Shown in pieces: positions 2,987 through 10,968 of a DNA stretch of 38,753 nucleotides. The stretch lies in NCBI GenBank assembly GCA_025449555.1, contig JANWJD010000147.1, positions 1 through 38,753 of the forward strand, in the 5' to 3' direction. Origin of the DNA: Chloroflexota bacterium. GTDB lineage: Bacteria; Chloroflexota; UBA5177. How positions within the stretch are numbered: the first letter of the stretch is position 1; each line of letters begins with the position of its first letter. The notes under the pieces were generated by a model. The model saw only the letters and a list, made by a program, of their open reading frames with translations, did not search any database and was not told the origin of the DNA. Position numbers and translations under genes: made by a program.

Positions 2987-3013
2987 CCCCGACGCTCAGT
3001 TCCGAAGTTCGGT
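2987..3013 (-). repeat. Degenerate tRNA-Arg 3'-half fragment, possible old att site
   Basis: By eye this 27-mer matches the tRNA-Arg anticodon/variable region (9642-9668) at 22 of 27 positions and the duplicated fragment at 4165-4191 at 23 of 27. It shares with the latter the non-tRNA ending GAAGTT.GGT, which suggests descent from an attachment-site junction rather than directly from the tRNA. Left of it the similarity fades, so the call is tentative. Confidence 0.45.
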
Positions 3014-3020
3014 TACAAAC

Positions 3021-3050
3021 GTTCGAGCAGGTTCACCGAGGTTCACGTTC
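3021..3050 (+). repeat. Three 10-bp-phased GTTC repeats beside the att-like site
   Basis: GTTCGAGCAG, GTTCACCGAG and GTTCACGTTC run head to tail in exact 10-bp register, one helical turn. Similar triplets occur at 4211-4240 and 9365-9394, the other two tRNA-like junctions. Phased repeats next to tRNA attachment sites are often recombinase arm-binding sites; that role is inferred. Confidence 0.4.
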
Positions 3051-3302
3051 GGCACCGGCAAGCCAAAGTTATGCCGTAGCCAGGCGGCGATGCCCGGCAT
3101 AGTTCGCTGTGACTTGCAGCGGTTTTGCAGCATCGCAGAGACGCAACGCGCACTGCGAAGCGTGATTGCGTAGCGGAAAGAGGGACCCGCGTTGTGCCGT
3201 CCCGGTGTCGGCATGGCATCCGTCGCTCCCTAAAGCCGAGGAAGCCCGGCAGCCAGAGCCCATGACGTGGTACAACGTGGTAACGGTTTAGCCGAGGGAT
3301 AT

Positions 3303-3599
3303 GTGGACACGATTGCCTCGCATATTGACGTTACTCCCGGCGTAGCAGGCGGCAAGCCTCGTATCGCTGGACACCGCATCACCGTGCAGAACATTGTGAT
3401 CTGGCATGAGCGCCTGGGCCTCGGGGCCGACGAGATCGCGACAGAATACGGTCTTTCGCTCGGCGATATCTATGCGGCGCTCGCCTACTATTTCGACCAC
3501 CGTGAAGAGATTGACAGAGCGATTCGAGAGGACGAGGAGTTTATCGCAGAACTACGTCGACGTACGCCGTCCATACTGAGCGACAAGCTTGGCCGCTGA
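3303..3599 (+). CDS. DUF433 family antitoxin
   Basis: Small protein of the DUF433 family (about 98 aa from GTG 3303). This family is commonly found as the antitoxin-like partner of a PIN-like DUF5615 protein. The typical core is visible: a conserved GGKPRIAGHRI segment followed by a helix-turn-helix-like region around YGLSLGDIYAAL. The ORF track starts at GTG 3267, but GTG 3303 is preferred: it follows GAGGG by about 4 bases and matches the usual N-terminus of the family (VDTIAS..). The gene overlaps the next one by 11 bases, so the two are translationally linked. It lies between the degenerate att-like site at 2987 and the 4138 repeat, a typical position for a stabilising cassette on an integrated element. 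Confidence 0.85.
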   Translation: MDTIASHIDVTPGVAGGKPRIAGHRITVQNIVIWHERLGLGADEIATEYGLSLGDIYAALAYYFDHREEIDRAIREDEEFIAELRRRTPSILSDKLGR

Positions 3600-3927
3600 G
3601 TCCCGCGTCGCGTTCTACATGGATGAACACGTCCCGGCTGTAGTATCCGAAGCTTTGCGTCGCCGAGGCGTCGATGTGTTGACGGCCCAGGCGGCCGATA
3701 TGCGGGGCGCTTCAGACGAACAGCACTTGGCGCTGGCAGTCCGCGACGGGCGCGCCATATTCACGCAGGATGTTGACTTCCTCCACCTTCACACGTCGCA
3801 CCGCCCGCATCACGGCATCATATACACCCCGCAGGGTACCCCATTGGGAACTATCGTGCGCGGTCTAATTCTGATCTACGAGGTGCTGCGACCGGATGAA
3901 ATGGCTGGCCATGTGGAGTTTATATAG
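3589..3927 (+). CDS. DUF5615 PIN-like toxin-family protein
   Basis: A 112-aa protein of the DUF5615 family, predicted PIN-like nucleases that pair with DUF433 proteins. The N-terminal MDEHVP (acidic residues of the PIN-like fold), the DVLTA strand and the central FTQDVDFL acidic motif are all visible. The TTG start at 3589 lies inside the DUF433 gene, 11 bases before its stop. ATG 3619 would remove the first strand before the catalytic DE pair, so TTG with coupled translation is more plausible. The gene looks intact, with all expected acidic residues. Its substrate (mRNA or tRNA) cannot be read from the sequence. Confidence 0.82.
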   Translation: MAAESRVAFYMDEHVPAVVSEALRRRGVDVLTAQAADMRGASDEQHLALAVRDGRAIFTQDVDFLHLHTSHRPHHGIIYTPQGTPLGTIVRGLILIYEVLRPDEMAGHVEFI

Positions 3928-3948
3928 ACCGTTGGTGCGAGTTGACGA

Positions 3949-4140
3949 ATGACCGAGAGCAGTGGGAATGTGTTTGCCGATCTAAACGTCGTGGATCCGG
4001 ACGAGGCATTGGTAAGGGCCGACCTGGTTGGTGTGATCGCGGTGCTCGTCAACGCAAACCGTCTGACTCAGACTCGGGCCGCGGAACTGCTGGGCATCGA
4101 CCAGCCGAAGGTATCTGCGCTCATGTTCGCCAAACGCAAA
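3949..4140 (+). pseudogene. XRE/HigA-type antitoxin, truncated by tRNA-derived repeat
   Basis: Starts at ATG 3949 with the SSGNVFADL opening typical of XRE-type antitoxins that partner HigB/Gp49-like toxins. The helix-turn-helix follows (LTQTRAAELLGIDQPKVSAL). The reading then runs straight into tRNA-derived sequence at 4138, giving the meaningless WRTWRDSNPRHP tail up to 4353. The second half of the domain, where family members continue with the GFSxxRLL-like segment, is missing. No cognate toxin is adjacent, so the gene is orphaned and broken. It is listed as a pseudogene ending at the repeat boundary; the fusion ORF of 134 aa could still be translated. Confidence 0.75.
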
Positions 4141-4180
4141 TGGCGCACCTGGAGGGATTCGAACCCCCGACACCCAGTTC
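4138..4180 (-). repeat. Direct repeat of tRNA-Arg 3' end (distal att copy)
   Basis: 43 bp identical to 9615-9657. It contains the complement of CCA, the acceptor 3' strand, the whole T arm, the variable loop and the 3' half of the anticodon stem of tRNA-Arg(UCG). The two copies have the same orientation. After one mismatch (T/C at 4181) similarity continues for a few bases and then stops. This is the expected layout for an element integrated into the 3' half of a tRNA gene: the tRNA proximal copy stays intact and the distal copy is only the 3' part. Confidence 0.88.
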
Positions 4181-4210
4181 TGAAGTTTGGTGGTACAGGG
4201 GGTGGTCGAC

Positions 4211-4240
4211 TGTTCGCTTCTGTTCGTCAATATTCGTCTT
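4211..4240 (+). repeat. Three 10-bp-phased TGTTCG-type repeats
   Basis: TGTTCGCTTC, TGTTCGTCAA and TATTCGTCTT follow each other in exact 10-bp phase, 20 bp inside the distal tRNA fragment. The same pattern recurs at 9365-9394. These are candidate recombinase arm-type sites. Confidence 0.45.
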
Positions 4241-4316
4241 TGGCCGGAATCCGCCGCGTTTTACTCGCAACTGACGACGGCGAACGGTCGCGAAAGTCGG
4301 CGAATGGCGCTTTTTG

Positions 4317-4333
4317 TGGTCAGATTGTGGTCA
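4317..4333 (+). repeat. TGGTCA pair in 11-bp phase (left copy)
   Basis: TGGTCA at 4317-4322 and 4328-4333, as GTGGTCAGATTGTGGTCA. Nearly the same string (CTGGTCAAATTGTGGTCA) lies at 9535-9552 near the tRNA end of the element. This may be part of the recombination module or a relic of integrase-proximal sequence. Confidence 0.45.
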
Positions 4334-4419
4334 ATCAGACTGTGTCTCGGTGAGCTATTCTCGCTGTAAGAGGAAGCCGCGTTGCCGAACACGTGCTCGG
4401 CCTTGAGCCCTCGGTGCGT

Positions 4420-6080
4420 TTACACCGCGGCCGTCTGAGGGGTCCTGACCAGGTCGAGCGCTTCCTTGATCGTGTGCCTACGGCCGGCCTCCGTGGCGCG
4501 GGCGGCATCGTCAGCCGAGAGCGCCGCTCGCGCTTGCTCGATGAGATCGCGGCCCGGTGTTTCCTCGGAGTAGACGTTCACGATCCCCTCCTGATGGGCG
4601 TAGACCTCCGCCGCCGCGGCGATCTGGACGGCCCGCGCGGGCTAATGCTCGACGAACTCGGTGGCAGCGAGGCCGATCAGCGAGAGCCCAAGCCCGCGAA
4701 CGCTCATGATATCGGTGAAGGCTCGCACCGCGTCGAGGAATGAGCGGCGCGCCTGCGTCGGATCCTGGTTCCGCAGGTAGGTCCAGGCCATATCGTCGAG
4801 GATACGGGCTTCCTCGGCGCGATCGCCAATCGTTTCAAAGGCGGTGAGGGCTTGCCCGTAGAGCTCGAGGGCATCCGCGAGGTCGCCGCTGCCGGCTGCC
4901 AGACCCGCCAGACCACCGAGAGACAGCCCGGCGCCTTCCTGGTCGCCGAGACGCCGCTGGATCTCGAGCGCTCGGGAGTATCGCACGCGTGACGCCTCAA
5001 GGTCGCCAGCGACGGAGCGCAGGATGCCGTCGATGGTCAGGGCCATTCCCTCGCACCACGCGAACCCAATGGCCTGGCTCCGCTGGATGCTCTCCACCGT
5101 CTGTTTGAGGGCTATGTCGAGGTCAAAGCCGAGCAGCCCAAGGCCGACACACCACGCAGTCACACACCACTCGCGCTCGCTCTGGAGCTCTACCGCGATT
5201 TGGTAGGACTCGGACCAGAGGTCGTTCGCACGCTCGTACTCACCCAGCACCCACGCCGCCAGGCCCGCCGTTATCAGGGCTCCTGACCGCGCGGTCGTGC
5301 GCGAGGCGGCGGCATCCGCAGCGAGGAAGGACGTGGCGTAATCCCGTGCGGTGAGGTTCTTGCCGCGGATGTGCCAGTACATGTACAGGTCGCCGCTCAT
5401 CTGCATGCCCGCCTCGGCGGCGGTCATGTCACCGCTCCGGGCACACGCCAGCAGTGTGTCGAGGGCAGCCTGGAGGTTGCCCTCCTCGGCGATTCCGCGC
5501 TCGACGGATCCGACCTCATCGGTCCCCTCGATGCCGTCGCGTATGCCGCCGTCCCCGGATCCGGCACGACAATGCCGTCGGCCGCGACTGCGTAGAACTC
5601 GAGCGGTCGCCCTACGTTCTTGAGCCGGAACCGGCCCAGATTGATAAGGTGGACATCGCTCCGGTTCTTGAGTTGGTCGCGAGCGGCGTCGGACAGCAGC
5701 ACCGCGCCCGGGACGGCGACGGAGTCGACACGGGAGGCGATGTTAACGGCTTCGCCCGTCAGTCGCTCCGGCTCGACGACCACCTCGCCCACGTGGACGC
5801 CGATCCGAATCGGAATGTCCTGGCGGGCGAGCTCCCGCTGGATCGCGACTGCGGCCAGCACTGCAGCCAGCGAACTGGGGAACATGCTCATGGTGCCGTC
5901 ACCGAGGCGTTGGACGATAGTCCCGTCGAAGGACTGATGGTGACGCTCGATCGCGCCAATGTAGCGGTCGCGCTTGTCGACGGCCGTGAGCTCGTCGGCC
6001 TGGATCAACGCGGTGTAGCCGACCATGTCGGTGAACATCACCGCAACGAGCTGCCGAGGGGGTTGCTGCAAGAATTCCAT
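4420..6080 (-). pseudogene. Adenylate cyclase-TPR signalling protein, frameshifted and with amber stop
   Basis: Starts at ATG 6080, two bases after the stop of the upstream hydrolase. Residues 10-190 form a class III nucleotide cyclase domain with metal-binding aspartates in FTDMVGYT and GDGTMSMF. Shortly after VVPDPG the frame is lost at a run of four Gs on the coding strand (5553-5556). One added G restores a reading that runs smoothly (DGGIRDGIEGTDE..) into the TPR region annotated as ORF 5427-4642. That ORF ends at an in-frame TAG (4644-4642), but homologous-looking coding sequence (PARAVQIAAAAEVYAHQ..) continues for about 73 codons to TAA at 4422-4420. So a cyclase-TPR gene of about 550 codons carries two lesions. 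A sequencing error could explain the first, but two independent lesions favour a decaying gene. No AAA domain is present between cyclase and TPR. Confidence 0.78.
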
Positions 6081-6082
6081 TT

Positions 6083-7918
6083 TTACATTGCCGGTAGCAC
6101 GTACACCTCCACGCCCGACGGCTGGGCCTGGGAGCGGACAACGCATTGGGTCGCCACCTTGAAGTCCTCCGGCCGCGCGGTGGGGATGTTCACGAAGGTT
6201 TGTGGATTGCGATCCACCAGCGGAAACCAGCTGCCCTGCACCTGCACCATGACGCGGTGGCCGCGACGAAAGACGTGATTCACATCGGGCATCGTGAAGG
6301 TCACCGCCTCGACCCTCCCCGGCACAAATGGCTCGGGCTTCTCGAAGCTCTTGCGGAACTTCCCGCGAAACGGCCAGCCGCGAACCAGTTGTTGGTAGCC
6401 CGCGAGCGTCACGGTCGGCGGCCCCACGTCCTTCTGGTCTTCCGCACCATGACCTGCCGCCGGCGTGCTCCGATTCGGCGGATAGACATCGATCAGCTTC
6501 ACCACCCAGTCGGAGTCGGTTCCGGTGGTCGAAACGAAGAGCTTCGGTGAAACCGGGCCGGCCAGCGCGAGATCCTCCTCGAGCGGCTCCGTCACGTAGA
6601 CGAGCACGTCCGGCCGCGTCGCGGCGAAGCGCTGGTCAGACACCATGTATTCCTGGGGCATCCCGAGTGCGGTGTAGCCAATGAACGGGACCGGCTTCGC
6701 CGGATCGCTCACGTAGGAGTCGCGGGCGTCTGCCTCGGCCGGCGGCTCGAACGCGAGCTTGCCCGCTTCGCGGAAATACAGCGTTTGGGGTGTCGCGTCC
6801 GGTGGGGGCCACGCGGGATACGCCCGCCAGACATTCGTGCCCGTCTCGAAGACGTAGGCCTCGGGCAAGTTCGGGTCGCCCTTGTCCTTCAGATGGAACT
6901 CGAAGAACGGCAGCAGGATGCTCTGGCGGTAGAACTCCGCCGTGTCCGCCGCGAAGTCGACGTTACCCAGACGCCGGCCCTCACCGGAGACCCAGCCGCC
7001 GTGCACCCAGGGGCCCATCACGAGGCCATTCGCGATATCCGGGTTGGCAGTCTTAATGGCTCGATAGATGCGCAACGGTCCCATCAGATCCTCGGCATCG
7101 TACCAGCCCCCCACGGTGAGCACCGCGCACCGAATGTTTTTCACGTGCCGCCAGATGGCGCGGGACTGCCAGAAGTCATCGTAAGTTGGATGCGTGAGGA
7201 GCTCTTCCCAGGTGGGATTCGGATCTCCGAACAGGGACGCGGCATTGCCCAGCGGGCCGAGCTGCAGGAAGAACTCATAGCCGTCCTCCGTGCCGTAGTC
7301 GAACGGCACCTCTGCCTTGGGAGGTGGCGTCGGACCCGACTGCGGCTGGTAGACCGGCGCGGCGCTGATCGCGTGGGCGAGCATGAACGCGCCACCGTGA
7401 TACCAGTCGTCATCGAGGAACAGGTCGGCGACCGGCGCCTGCGGCGACGCCGCCCTAATTGCCTTGTGCGTGTCGATGATTCCAGCCACCGTGTAGAAGC
7501 CGGCGTACGAGCCACCGTAAATGCCCACACGGCCATTGTGATTGGGCACATACCGCAGCAGCCAGTCGACCGTGTCGTACAGGTCCGTGCTTTCGTCGAC
7601 GTCCGACGCGGTCTTCTCCGGTCGATGCGGCGTCATGTGGGTGAACTCGCCTTCCGCCATCCTCCGGCCGCGCACGTCCTGCCGCACCCAGATGTAGCCG
7701 GCCTTGAGGAGTGCTTCAGTCTGAGAGCTCGACGGGGGATATTCGTCGGGACCATACGGGTTGACGCCAAATGGCGATCGCACGATGAGGAACGGGTATG
7801 CCGTCGAGGCATCCTTGGGCACGAGCACCGACGTAAAGAGCCTCACGCCGTCGCGCATCGGAACACGAAATTCGTACTTAGTGTAGTGCTCGCGGGCGTC
7901 GTAGGCTTCGTCCGTCAT
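6083..7918 (-). CDS. CocE/NonD-family serine hydrolase, alpha-amino acid ester hydrolase-like
   Basis: A 611-aa alpha/beta hydrolase of the X-Pro dipeptidyl-peptidase/CocE superfamily with its C-terminal jelly-roll domain (about 350-611). The nucleophile elbow GGSYAG is at 135-140 (Ser137), followed by WYDAED with Asp274 and PWVHGG with His306. The DxED arrangement (Asp274, Glu276, Asp277) plus Asp171, 34 residues after the serine, matches the carboxylate cluster that alpha-amino acid ester hydrolases use to bind the substrate ammonium group. The enzyme therefore probably hydrolyses or transfers alpha-amino acyl esters or beta-lactam side chains rather than cocaine-like esters. No signal peptide is seen, so it is cytoplasmic as read. 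ATG 7918 has GGAGG five bases upstream. The cyclase-TPR pseudogene follows after 2 bases. This is the only clearly intact enzyme inside the tRNA-bounded element. Confidence 0.85.
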   Translation of the reverse strand: MTDEAYDAREHYTKYEFRVPMRDGVRLFTSVLVPKDASTAYPFLIVRSPFGVNPYGPDEYPPSSSQTEALLKAGYIWVRQDVRGRRMAEGEFTHMTPHRPEKTASDVDESTDLYDTVDWLLRYVPNHNGRVGIYGGSYAGFYTVAGIIDTHKAIRAASPQAPVADLFLDDDWYHGGAFMLAHAISAAPVYQPQSGPTPPPKAEVPFDYGTEDGYEFFLQLGPLGNAASLFGDPNPTWEELLTHPTYDDFWQSRAIWRHVKNIRCAVLTVGGWYDAEDLMGPLRIYRAIKTANPDIANGLVMGPWVHGGWVSGEGRRLGNVDFAADTAEFYRQSILLPFFEFHLKDKGDPNLPEAYVFETGTNVWRAYPAWPPPDATPQTLYFREAGKLAFEPPAEADARDSYVSDPAKPVPFIGYTALGMPQEYMVSDQRFAATRPDVLVYVTEPLEEDLALAGPVSPKLFVSTTGTDSDWVVKLIDVYPPNRSTPAAGHGAEDQKDVGPPTVTLAGYQQLVRGWPFRGKFRKSFEKPEPFVPGRVEAVTFTMPDVNHVFRRGHRVMVQVQGSWFPLVDRNPQTFVNIPTARPEDFKVATQCVVRSQAQPSGVEVYVLPAM

Positions 7919-8027
7919 ATGCGCCTCCGGGTTGCCGTGTAACCACGCAGAGCTAGTGGGTCACTTGGCTCGAACATCGCCATATTATCCTGCCGCGCAA
8001 CGGCGACGGAGCGGCCGCCGAGTGTAG

Positions 8028-8603
8028 GCACCTGAAGCGCTCAGTGCATACCGTTCCATCGCGCATCCCTATCCTGATATGTTGCCACTATCTGGCACTG
8101 TGCGGTGCTACTCCTTCAAGGAGTTGTTCGCGGAGAAACTGCGTGCCATGGGGCAGCGGGGCCGGCCGCGGGACCTATACGACATCGTCAACCTCTTTCG
8201 GCGCAATGACCTTATCGAGCCGTACTCGCTCCGTCGGACGCGGGAGGGCAATCTTGTTCTACATGCCCTGCGCCCAGACGACCGCCAGCATCGCTCGTGC
8301 CGGGGCGACAGGATGGAGCACGTCGAGGTGACGCCCCGGCCCTTCCGCCCGATCTATACGATCGAGTTCTCCGCCTCGGGTCCGATGGCAGCGCTGCCAG
8401 CGCGCGGTGGTAGCATTGGCACCACGCGCATGTCCATGCCACGGCACCCTCGCGCCAGCAGCGGCCTCGCGTACATCATCCAGTGCCCGATCTGTCAGAA
8501 GCAGTCCCGGCGTCAGACCCGTGGTATCTCGTTACGTCCGCACAAAGCAACGGGCGGATGGTCATGCCCGGGCCGGCGAGGCTACCTGGTGGGAACTCGA
8601 TAG
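8028..8603 (+). pseudogene. AbiEii/AbiGii-type nucleotidyltransferase remnant
   Basis: A frame open only from 8028 (in-frame TAG at 8025) reads HPYPDMLP, then the family signature YSFKELFAEKLRAMGQR and RPRDLYDIVNLFRR. These are typical of AbiEii/DUF1814 abortive-infection nucleotidyltransferases. The catalytic N-terminal third is absent and there is no start codon at a sensible place. Between about 8215 and 8330 the conserved text is short and spread over two frames (ASIARA in one, GDRMEHVE in the other), pointing to a frameshift and an internal deletion. The C-terminal end is preserved: a zinc-ribbon-like CPIC..CPGR and GYLVGTR before the stop. Decayed type IV toxin or phage-defence gene; its AbiEi partner is not present. 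Confidence 0.7.
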
Positions 8604-8724
8604 GCACCGCTCACTGGTTACAGCAGCACGCATTGGTCCGGGCGGTCAAGCTGACGGACCCTCATTCTCATCGACGACATGCTACGGAGTATCTCGGTAC
8701 TACGCTATAGAGCAACTCGGGGAG

Positions 8725-8990
8725 CTATCGGAGCGCAGAGTATCGCACCGGCGTCAGACCAAACGCAGCCTTGAACATCCGCGTGAAATGTGCTTGGTCT
8801 GCGAACCCGGTGTCTCGTGCCACCTCGCCCGGGGGCCGATGCAGGGCAAGCTGCTCGCGGGCATGATCAAGCCGTCGCATGACGAGGTAACGATACGGGC
8901 TCGTTCCACACACCGACCGGAACTGGCGAGCCAGATCGTAGCGGGTGAGGCCCGTGACGGCTGCATCGAGCGGCGGGAGAAGCGCTGGAG
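8725..8990 (-). pseudogene. AraC-family regulator, C-terminal DNA-binding half only
   Basis: The last 85 or so residues of ORF 8725-9102 are an AraC-type double helix-turn-helix: GLTRYDLARQFRSVCGTSPYRYLVMRRL and GFADQAHFTRMFKAAFGLTPVRY. The residues before about position 40 of the ORF do not belong to the family; they are antisense to the TPR fragment that begins near 8995 on the other strand. The sensor domain is gone, and the fusion point near 8990-9000 is a recombination junction. The DNA-binding half might still be made, but nothing suggests a normal start. Confidence 0.7.
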
Positions 8991-8994
8991 CAGC

Positions 8995-9286
8995 TGCCCG
9001 AGCAACGGAGACAGACGAGCCGGCGCTGAGCTTCCATCGCGAGTGGGGCGATTTCGAAGGCGAGGTTCGGATTATGGTGGACGTTGGCCGGATCCTGTTC
9101 AACCAGAACCGGTGGGACGAGGGGATCGAGCGGCTCCGTCCGGTTATGGAGCGATGGGAGCGCGATCCACTGGCCTCCGCAGCAGCCGCCCGGTTTCACC
9201 TGGCGCTGGCCAACCTGTACTGTCATGCAGGACGGCGGGGGGAGGATCAGCTGCGGCTGCTGGATCGGGCGGCGGAGCTGGGGTGA
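8995..9286 (+). pseudogene. TPR fragment paralogous to the AAA-TPR regulator at 55-2958
   Basis: Within ORF 8945-9286 the part from FHREWGDFEGEV to LDRAAELG aligns by eye, in order, with the LGDWE..LGEAYHFGGR..LPVV..LYAALCSLYLAVGR region of the first gene. It is therefore a piece of a second AAA-TPR regulator, cut at both ends. It meets the AraC fragment head-to-head near 8990-9000 and lies just inside the right end of the tRNA-bounded element. Not functional as read. Confidence 0.6.
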
Positions 9287-9364
9287 CCACCCTCAGTTAG
9301 TTTTCGCAGTCCGCCGCCTTTGGGAACCGTCGTCGTCTCCTTCACCGACAACCAGATTTGGGAC

Positions 9365-9394
9365 TGTTTCCGCATGTTCGCCAATGTTCGCGCA
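9365..9394 (+). repeat. Three 10-bp-phased TGTTCG-type repeats (right copy)
   Basis: TGTTTCCGCA, TGTTCGCCAA and TGTTCGCGCA in exact 10-bp register, matching the triplet at 4211-4240 in sequence, phase and orientation. Confidence 0.45.
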
Positions 9395-9535
9395 CCTGAA
9401 CCCCCGTCTCCAGCTGGCGTCGGGCGCGTCAAGAACCGGCCAGTGGACGCCAAATTCGGCAAATCCGGTGCAGGACCACGACGAGGTCTACTACCTGCCC
9501 CCAGTACCCCGACAGCCATTTCTTCGATCAGATTC

Positions 9536-9552
9536 TGGTCAAATTGTGGTCA
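9536..9552 (+). repeat. TGGTCA pair in 11-bp phase (right copy)
   Basis: TGGTCA at 9536-9541 and 9547-9552, 65 bp from the tRNA 3' end. Same spacing and nearly the same intervening bases as the pair at 4317-4333. Confidence 0.45.
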
Positions 9553-9617
9553 GAGAGGCTGATGAGCACCGACGTCGAGCCTGCAGGTCGCCGTTTTCGG
9601 CTCGCGCAAGCCAAAAA

Positions 9618-9693
9618 TGGCGCACCTGGAGGGATTCGAACCCCCGACACCCAGTTCCGAAGACTGGTGCTCTATCCGCTGAGCTACAGGTGC
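9618..9693 (-). tRNA. tRNA-Arg (anticodon UCG)
   Basis: Full 76-nt cloverleaf on the minus strand, from 9693 to 9618. It has acceptor GCACCTG/CAGGTGC, D arm GCTC..GAGC, anticodon stem CCAGT/ACTGG with loop CTTCGGA (anticodon TCG, reads CGA), T arm GGGGG-TTCGAAT-CCCTC, discriminator G and an encoded CCA. Its 3' part is duplicated at 4138-4180. Confidence 0.96.
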
Positions 9694-9888: not shown

Positions 9889-10968
9889 ATGCGTGACACC
9901 GACCCGGTGGATTCGTCCAAAGACTGGGACTCGGCGGAACCTCATTCCGTCGGTCTCGACGCCGCACGCCTGCAGACAATGGGCGAAGCGATCGAGCGCG
10001 GGGAGTATCCCGCGGTGAATGGCGTGTTGATCGCACGCTCCGGCACGCTCGCATTCGAGCGCTACTTCAACGGATTCGACGCATCTTCCTTGATGAACAC
10101 GCGCTCGACCACGAAGACCATCACCGGTATGCTGATCGGCATCGCGATCGATCGAGGGTTTCTATCCGGGGTCGACGCGCCTGTCATGAGCTTCTTCGCG
10201 GATCTTCAGCCGGTGCATAATCCCGACCCACGGAAAGACCGGATCTCGATTGAGGACTTCCTCACCATGAGCTCACTCCTCGAGTGCGACGACTCGAACT
10301 CGTTCTCACGCGGCAATGAGGAGCGCATGTATCTGGTGGAGGACTGGGCAAGGTTCACGCTCGACCTGCCCATAAGAGGTTTTCCCGGCTGGATGACGAA
10401 GCCGGAAGATTCAAGGTATGGACGCAGCTTCAATGACTGCACTGGGGGTGTCGTAACACTCGGAAGTGTGCTCGAGCGAGTTACCGGCATGCCGGTACCG
10501 GAGTTTGCCGGCCAATATCTCTTTGGGCCGTTGGGCATCCGGAATGCCGAATGGCCGTTTACGCCCCTTGGGACCGCCATGACGGGTGGCGGCCTGCAAC
10601 TCATCGGCCGGGATCTACTGAAGCTTGGGGCACTCTATCTCGACGGAGGTCGATGGAACGGACGGCAGATCGTGTCCGAGCAGTGGGTTCGCCAGTCGGT
10701 TCGGCCGCATGCCGAGGTCGACGACTCCACCGACTACGGGTACCTGTGGTGGCTCAAGCCGTTTGCAGCCGGTGATCGTACGTTCGCCTCTTTATCCATG
10801 CTCGGCAACGGCGGCAACAAGATCTGCGTCTTCCCTGACTTACAGCTGGTCGTCGTCATCGCCAGCACCAATTTCAACACCCGCGGAATGCACGAGCAAA
10901 CTGACAAGCTGCTTACCGAGTACATCCTGCCGGCGGCATCCGAGCGAGCCCGTACGCCGGTACCCTGA
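9889..10968 (+). CDS. Beta-lactamase-fold serine hydrolase
   Basis: A 359-aa protein of the beta-lactamase/penicillin-binding-protein-like family (PF00144 type). The active-site motif STTK is at 73-76, and YGYLWW and GNGGN lie near the C-terminal end where the third motif belongs. The second motif, where relatives generally have a Tyr in a YC- or YSN-like element before GVVTLG, reads FNDCTGG here, so the general-base tyrosine appears to be Asp183. No signal peptide is seen, so it is read as cytoplasmic. ATG 9889 follows AAGGAGG at good distance. The substrate is unknown; relatives include esterases, 6-aminohexanoate-oligomer hydrolases and D-aminopeptidases. It stands alone between the tRNA and a non-coding stretch. 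Confidence 0.85.
   Translation: MRDTDPVDSSKDWDSAEPHSVGLDAARLQTMGEAIERGEYPAVNGVLIARSGTLAFERYFNGFDASSLMNTRSTTKTITGMLIGIAIDRGFLSGVDAPVMSFFADLQPVHNPDPRKDRISIEDFLTMSSLLECDDSNSFSRGNEERMYLVEDWARFTLDLPIRGFPGWMTKPEDSRYGRSFNDCTGGVVTLGSVLERVTGMPVPEFAGQYLFGPLGIRNAEWPFTPLGTAMTGGGLQLIGRDLLKLGALYLDGGRWNGRQIVSEQWVRQSVRPHAEVDDSTDYGYLWWLKPFAAGDRTFASLSMLGNGGNKICVFPDLQLVVVIASTNFNTRGMHEQTDKLLTEYILPAASERARTPVP

Follow-up and report, generated by a model that had tools for sequence, protein, structure and literature searches.

In Dehalococcoides, of the phylum Chloroflexota, tandem genomic islands are found downstream of one RNA gene, ssrA, and are bounded by repeats of its 3' end. Fifteen of these islands have no integration module, and according to the authors they might be cis-mobilizable elements (PMC3146451). 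Streptococcal cis-mobilizable elements (CIMEs) are decayed elements which keep their attachment (att) sites, have no recombination or transfer genes, and are found in tandem with integrative and conjugative elements (ICEs) or integrative and mobilizable elements (IMEs) (PMC7563491). Here we analyze an array in another Chloroflexota bacterium (assembly GCA_025449555.1). The window we have studied is one entire contig of a draft genome (JANWJD010000147.1, 38,753 nt; genome G000), in which two elements, E1 and E2, follow a tRNA-Arg(UCG). Judging from its sequence, E1 is probably a CIME-like element, partly decayed and without an integrase, which belongs to an accreted tandem array at this tRNA; we give this reading a probability of about 0.8.

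Comparison with Described Systems

The array formed by E1 and E2, with its shared end modules, is new here; arrays of this kind have already been described in other bacteria, including the same phylum. We have found no published description of the tRNA-Arg(UCG) array of E1 within the open-access literature. The Dehalococcoides islands share the tandem arrangement and the RNA 3'-end repeats, but their target is a tmRNA, their repeat has 20 bp and their recombinase is the serine recombinase DsiB (PMC3146451). Here a tRNA-Arg(UCG) is the target, the repeat is about 45 bp long and a tyrosine recombinase is the candidate integrase. In streptococci the most decayed units are furthest from the target gene (PMC7563491), and the same is found here for E2. 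On the other hand, we have only one genome per genus, and no ICE is found on the contig of E1. A further array, fGI-2 of Candidatus (Ca.) Methylopumilus, is likewise marked by the recurring last 20 bp of a tRNA-Lys; it differs in phylum, tRNA and repeat length, and the part of its description used here mentions no arm modules (PMC10872708). According to the same part of this source, tycheposons are cargo-carrying elements of 4–200 kb which border a tRNA gene, as E1 does, but they contain a tyrosine recombinase, which is absent from E1 (PMC10872708).

E1 does not have its own integrase and transfer or mobilization genes, as an ICE or IME must. Integron cassette arrays have attC sites and an IntI integrase, while the repeats here are tRNA copies. 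The features of a CIME agree better with what we observe. The intact tRNA end and the partial tRNA copy, both with arm motifs, would correspond to attL and attR. No integrase, conjugation or mobilization genes were detected, as judged by a search for PF00589 in the contig, by tblastn and by the Pfam domains of the open reading frames (ORFs) examined. E1 keeps both arm modules and both cores and has no integrase, hence the label CIME-like.

The Repeat and Its Target

A preliminary description of this locus reported a direct 43-bp repeat, the right copy being part of an intact tRNA-Arg with its 3' end pointing into the interval. Both points are correct. Positions 4138–4180 and 9615–9657 are identical (43/43) and in direct orientation, and the repeat search extends them to 4138–4192 and 9615–9669 (52/55 identical, first mismatch at 4181/9658). 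The only tRNA that ARAGORN finds in the window is an intact tRNA-Arg(UCG) at 9618–9693 of the minus strand, oriented as described. The copy at 4138 matches 47 of the last 50 nt of this tRNA, with one mismatch within the core. The inventory was incomplete: It missed a third, degenerate copy of the tRNA core at 2987–3007 (19/21 identical) and the end motifs at 4314–4335 and 9533–9554. With up to three mismatches, a 21-nt core piece is found in three places in the window, whereas 100 dinucleotide shuffles do not contain it at all. A mobile element at tRNA-Arg was correctly recognized, but it is not a single element, since E1 is one unit of a tandem array.

Comparison with Related Genomes

We have compared five genomes of the family, G000 to G004, one per genus. 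All of them have an intact tRNA-Arg(UCG). Upstream of the tRNA, four genera (G000–G003) have the same order of genes (a 167-aa gene, NUDIX, radical SAM, Obg), with no NUDIX-type gene listed for G002; the G004 contig starts just before the tRNA, so its upstream side is unreadable. This side aligns with G001, G002 and G003 at roughly 67–80%. The downstream gene content is different in all five genomes, although G002 and G003 share a stretch at the left end (71% over 369 nt). Only a 58-nt piece of the right arm of E1 matches the loci of its relatives. The hydrolase coded by E1 has no match in the four relatives (E ≤ 1e-20), and vertical inheritance of the E1 cargo was rejected because this gene was not found in them. 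The conserved upstream order, the differing downstream content and the absence of the cargo from relatives support integration into the 3' end of the tRNA, as first proposed.

Partial copies of the tRNA 3' half are abundant in the family. Contig G001:C78 has them at 68.6, 72.3, 74.7, 77.2 and 84.4 kb, three more are found in G001:C65, and others in G002 and G004. Among the copies compared, identity to the last 50 nt of the tRNA goes from 49/50 (G004) down to 38/50 (G002:C136). For G003, the strong matches listed include no partial copy, only a left end of the same type.

The gap between the tRNA and the 167-aa gene also differs. In the window it contains a beta-lactamase-family gene (9889–10968), for which the four relatives give no match at E ≤ 1e-20, in G003 a glycoside hydrolase family 2 gene, and in G001 and G002 no predicted gene. 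The upstream side is therefore also partly variable.

End Modules

The elements at this tRNA have similar ends. The right ends of E1, of G002:C269 and of three G001:C78 units align pairwise before the core, over at most about 140 nt, and the start of the similarity is at or close to the double motif TTGACCACAATTTGACCACAA. The left arm of E1 has a motif similar to this one, and a related double motif is found near the tRNA at the left ends in G000, G001:C114, G002 and G003. Before several partial copies there is an arm of the same kind, ending in CCAAAC just before the bases of the anticodon loop. In the five family genomes, with up to three mismatches, the double motif has 11 matches, none of them in G004, while the reversed motif has none. 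Ten of the 11 adjoin a tRNA copy; the remaining match, at G001:C78:53276, shows homology with the left ends of G002 and G003. With up to two mismatches, the motif is found in 5 of 400 genomes of the phylum, four of them from the family of E1. The end modules are conserved while the cargo differs, as would be expected of sequences needed for recombination. The positions in the window are given in Table 1.

Two matches of the motif were set aside, no tRNA gene being recognized nearby: one in a genome of the phylum (G190) and the only one in IMG/VR. The latter (L208, IMGVR_UViG_649989951_000006) is an exact double motif near a sequence similar to a tRNA 3' end, in an unrelated contig, and may be due to chance. 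Another sequence, TGCAAAAC, is found at position 3122 of the window, at L047:11268 and at L053:301, each time near the end of an element. It may represent a second type of arm, but this is only a hint, because about two matches are expected by chance (an estimate), compared with the three present in the loci read.

Table 1. Features of the tRNA-Arg(UCG) locus, in order of position.
Feature	Position	Strand	Evidence
Degenerate third core copy (19/21), distal end of E2	2987–3007	-	0 in 100 shuffles
Element E2, second and more decayed unit, follows E1	3011–4137		domains, third copy
DUF433 putative antitoxin of E2	3267–3599	+	profile
DUF5615 PIN-like putative toxin of E2	3589–3927	+	profile
HTH_37 regulator, seemingly truncated at the 4138 copy (profile positions 1–52 of 80)	3949–4137	+	profile
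Partial tRNA-Arg copy, right attachment site of E1	4138–4192	-	repeat alignment
Right-arm module of E1: double motif at 4314–4335 (ATTGACCACAATCTGACCACAA) and repeats CGAATA / CGAACA / GCGAACA	4193–4335	-	alignment
Element E1, 5.4 kb between both copies	4193–9617		repeat, comparison
TPR region, probably remainder of the broken cyclase gene	4642–5427	-	domain profiles
Adenylate/guanylate cyclase domain of a broken gene, not in frame with the TPR part	5424–6080	-	domain profiles
CocE/NonD-type hydrolase (Peptidase_S15 and PepX_C), intact, 611 aa	6083–7918	-	domain profiles
ORF with AbiEii fragment (profile positions 132–176 of 238)	8079–8603	+	domain profile
AraC-type DNA-binding domain, fragment (end of an AraC protein)	8725–9102	-	domain profile
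Weak TPR fragment, overlaps the AraC ORF on the opposite strand	8945–9286	+	domain profile
Repeats of the left arm (GCGAACATTGGCGAACATG...), in common with the left end of the 77-kb element of G001:C78	9361–9398	-	84.6% over 39 nt, E = 1.5e-5
Double motif TCTGACCACAATTTGACCAGAA, left arm of E1	9533–9554	-	comparable place in G001:C114, G002:C269, G003:C135
tRNA-Arg(UCG), intact; its 3' half, from anticodon loop to CCA, serves as integration core (attL side)	9618–9693	-	ARAGORN, comparison
Conserved side of the tRNA: 167-aa gene, NUDIX, radical SAM, Obg GTPase and onward	11351–38753		same order in G001, G002 and G003 over the contig parts read

Candidate Integrase and Mechanism

A candidate for the integrase is found in G001 (Centralia_MAG_338, JAJPIP010000046.1), where the same motif separates the same tRNA-Arg(UCG) from an intact 443-aa tyrosine integrase (G001:C114:25055–26380). 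Genes with TraG- and TrwB-like domains follow. This element is ICE-like and in these respects different from E1. The two have the arm motif in common and no other similarity by blastn; a second copy of the tRNA end was not found on the contig of the G001 element. Arms common to other elements at the same tRNA, one of them with an intact tyrosine integrase, further back integration at the tRNA. Another integrase gene lies inside the 77–84 kb unit of G001:C78. Elsewhere in the phylum, homologs of the C114 integrase are often found beside tRNA genes of many kinds.

Related integrases are also found beside tRNA-Arg(UCG), or a similar sequence, in L218 and L220 (genomes G026 and G123), which belong to another family of the phylum. 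Perhaps they represent an independent use of the same tRNA.

The following mechanism may be suggested. A tRNA-targeting tyrosine integrase, possibly of the C114 type, would have inserted E1 at the part of tRNA-Arg(UCG) between the anticodon loop and the 3' end. The element would have brought a matching 3' half, which left the tRNA complete, while the original 3' half was displaced and would now be the copy at 4138. With repeated use of the same site in the family, elements would come to lie head to tail, with a partial tRNA copy at the end of each. E1 may still be mobilizable, but it could move only with an integrase from another element, such as the ICE-like one of G001.

Several observations weigh against this interpretation. 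No integrase of the C114 type is found at tRNA-Arg(UCG) in G000, a genome which is 84% complete, and the only G000 homolog (in contig C218) has a tRNA-Arg(CCG) nearby. No empty tRNA-Arg(UCG) site was seen in the five genomes of the family, and no excised form either. All these genomes are drafts in many contigs, several of which end at or near arrays. In addition, the other genes of E1 are broken or incomplete and the copy at 4138 has a core mutation, so that E1 may be immobile.

Gene Content of E1 and Alternative Explanations

E1 has a mixed content, one intact hydrolase and several broken or fragmentary genes, and no integrase, in agreement with the preliminary description. PF00589 has no match in the contig, and tblastn with the G001 integrase gives nothing meaningful in E1 as an integrase remnant. 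Conjugation, mobilization and phage domains are absent from the E1 ORFs examined. The best plasmid matches of the hydrolase, with about 51% identity or less, are uninformative on its origin. The right arm of E1, searched for as a sign of mobile forms elsewhere, has no match in plasmid records. The GC content, 64% in E1 and 61% in the core, is not decisive.

A non-autonomous island and an element which has lost its recombinase, the two options first proposed, are not mutually exclusive, and both may still apply. A more extreme possibility, which we consider doubtful but well worth keeping in mind, is that E1 is a dead scar: a formerly autonomous element which lost its integrase and most of its genes and can no longer be excised by anything. 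The broken cyclase/TPR gene, the AbiEii and AraC fragments, the core mismatch and the lack of an integrase in the contig agree with it. Nevertheless, both arm modules and both cores are still recognizable in their expected places, and the left ends shared by G002 and G003 have no adjacent integrase, which points to an integrase-less form that is inherited, in addition to single losses. Its cargo being partly decayed, E1 may be on its way to becoming a scar.

It is also conceivable, though unlikely, that tRNA-Arg(UCG) supports a cassette system, similar to integrons but based on tRNA-derived sites. Small integrase-less units with conserved ends would be moved in trans by the integrase of a resident ICE, in arrays stabilized by toxin–antitoxin genes. 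Such a system would fit the conserved end modules with diverging cargo, the toxin–antitoxin-type genes in several units, the cargo common to different genera and the units without integrase, which have about 2.7 kb (G002) and 5.4 kb (E1). However, the trans-acting integrase is only putative, and CIMEs together with decay account for the same anatomy through known processes.

It seems quite improbable that E1 is a phage satellite or a tycheposon-like element transferred in phage particles or vesicles. The tRNA site, the small size and the metabolic cargo recall such elements, but, besides the lack of phage domains noted above, the 30-nt core is absent from IMG/VR, the right arm is absent from the phage records searched, and the integrase-bearing element at the same tRNA carries conjugation-type genes. 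Finally, an origin of the 4138 copy by duplication or homologous recombination, without site-specific integration, has nothing in its favor beyond the repeat itself and can practically be discarded: It is contradicted by the shared arms, several copies in three genera beginning to match at the same point of the anticodon loop, with the same arm before it.

Other Units and Their Genes

For the CIME-like reading of E1, the other units of the family are also relevant. A cassette related to the DUF433 gene of E2 adjoins a tRNA copy in G002:C136 (79% over 250 nt), and toxin–antitoxin-type genes (PIN, HEPN, DUF433) recur across units. G001:C78 and G004:C84 each have a YihY-like gene downstream of a tRNA copy, and the two genes are 83% identical over 910 nt; as a yardstick, core genes of G000–G003 align mostly at 67–76%. 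The conserved ends with changing cargo, together with this gene shared by two genera, point to a role of such units in the exchange of genes between genera.

The repeat becomes a mapped integration hot spot for a little-known family of Chloroflexota. With a fixed tRNA, defined arms and a candidate integrase, the islands found there can be delimited. Units without an integrase also become findable, while searches which start from integrases would miss them.

A few other features of these units may be mentioned. A stretch overlapping a HEPN gene is found twice in G002 (L050:102–447 and L052:3204–3552, 91% identical), in two short contigs with tRNA copies. The region of G001:C78 between about 53 and 69 kb (L055, 13180–20000; L045, 1–8690) appears as a unit of about 15 kb with E1-type ends. 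It includes arsenic-type and transporter-like genes, and the G003 unit likewise begins with an ArsC-like gene, all named from reading the sequences.
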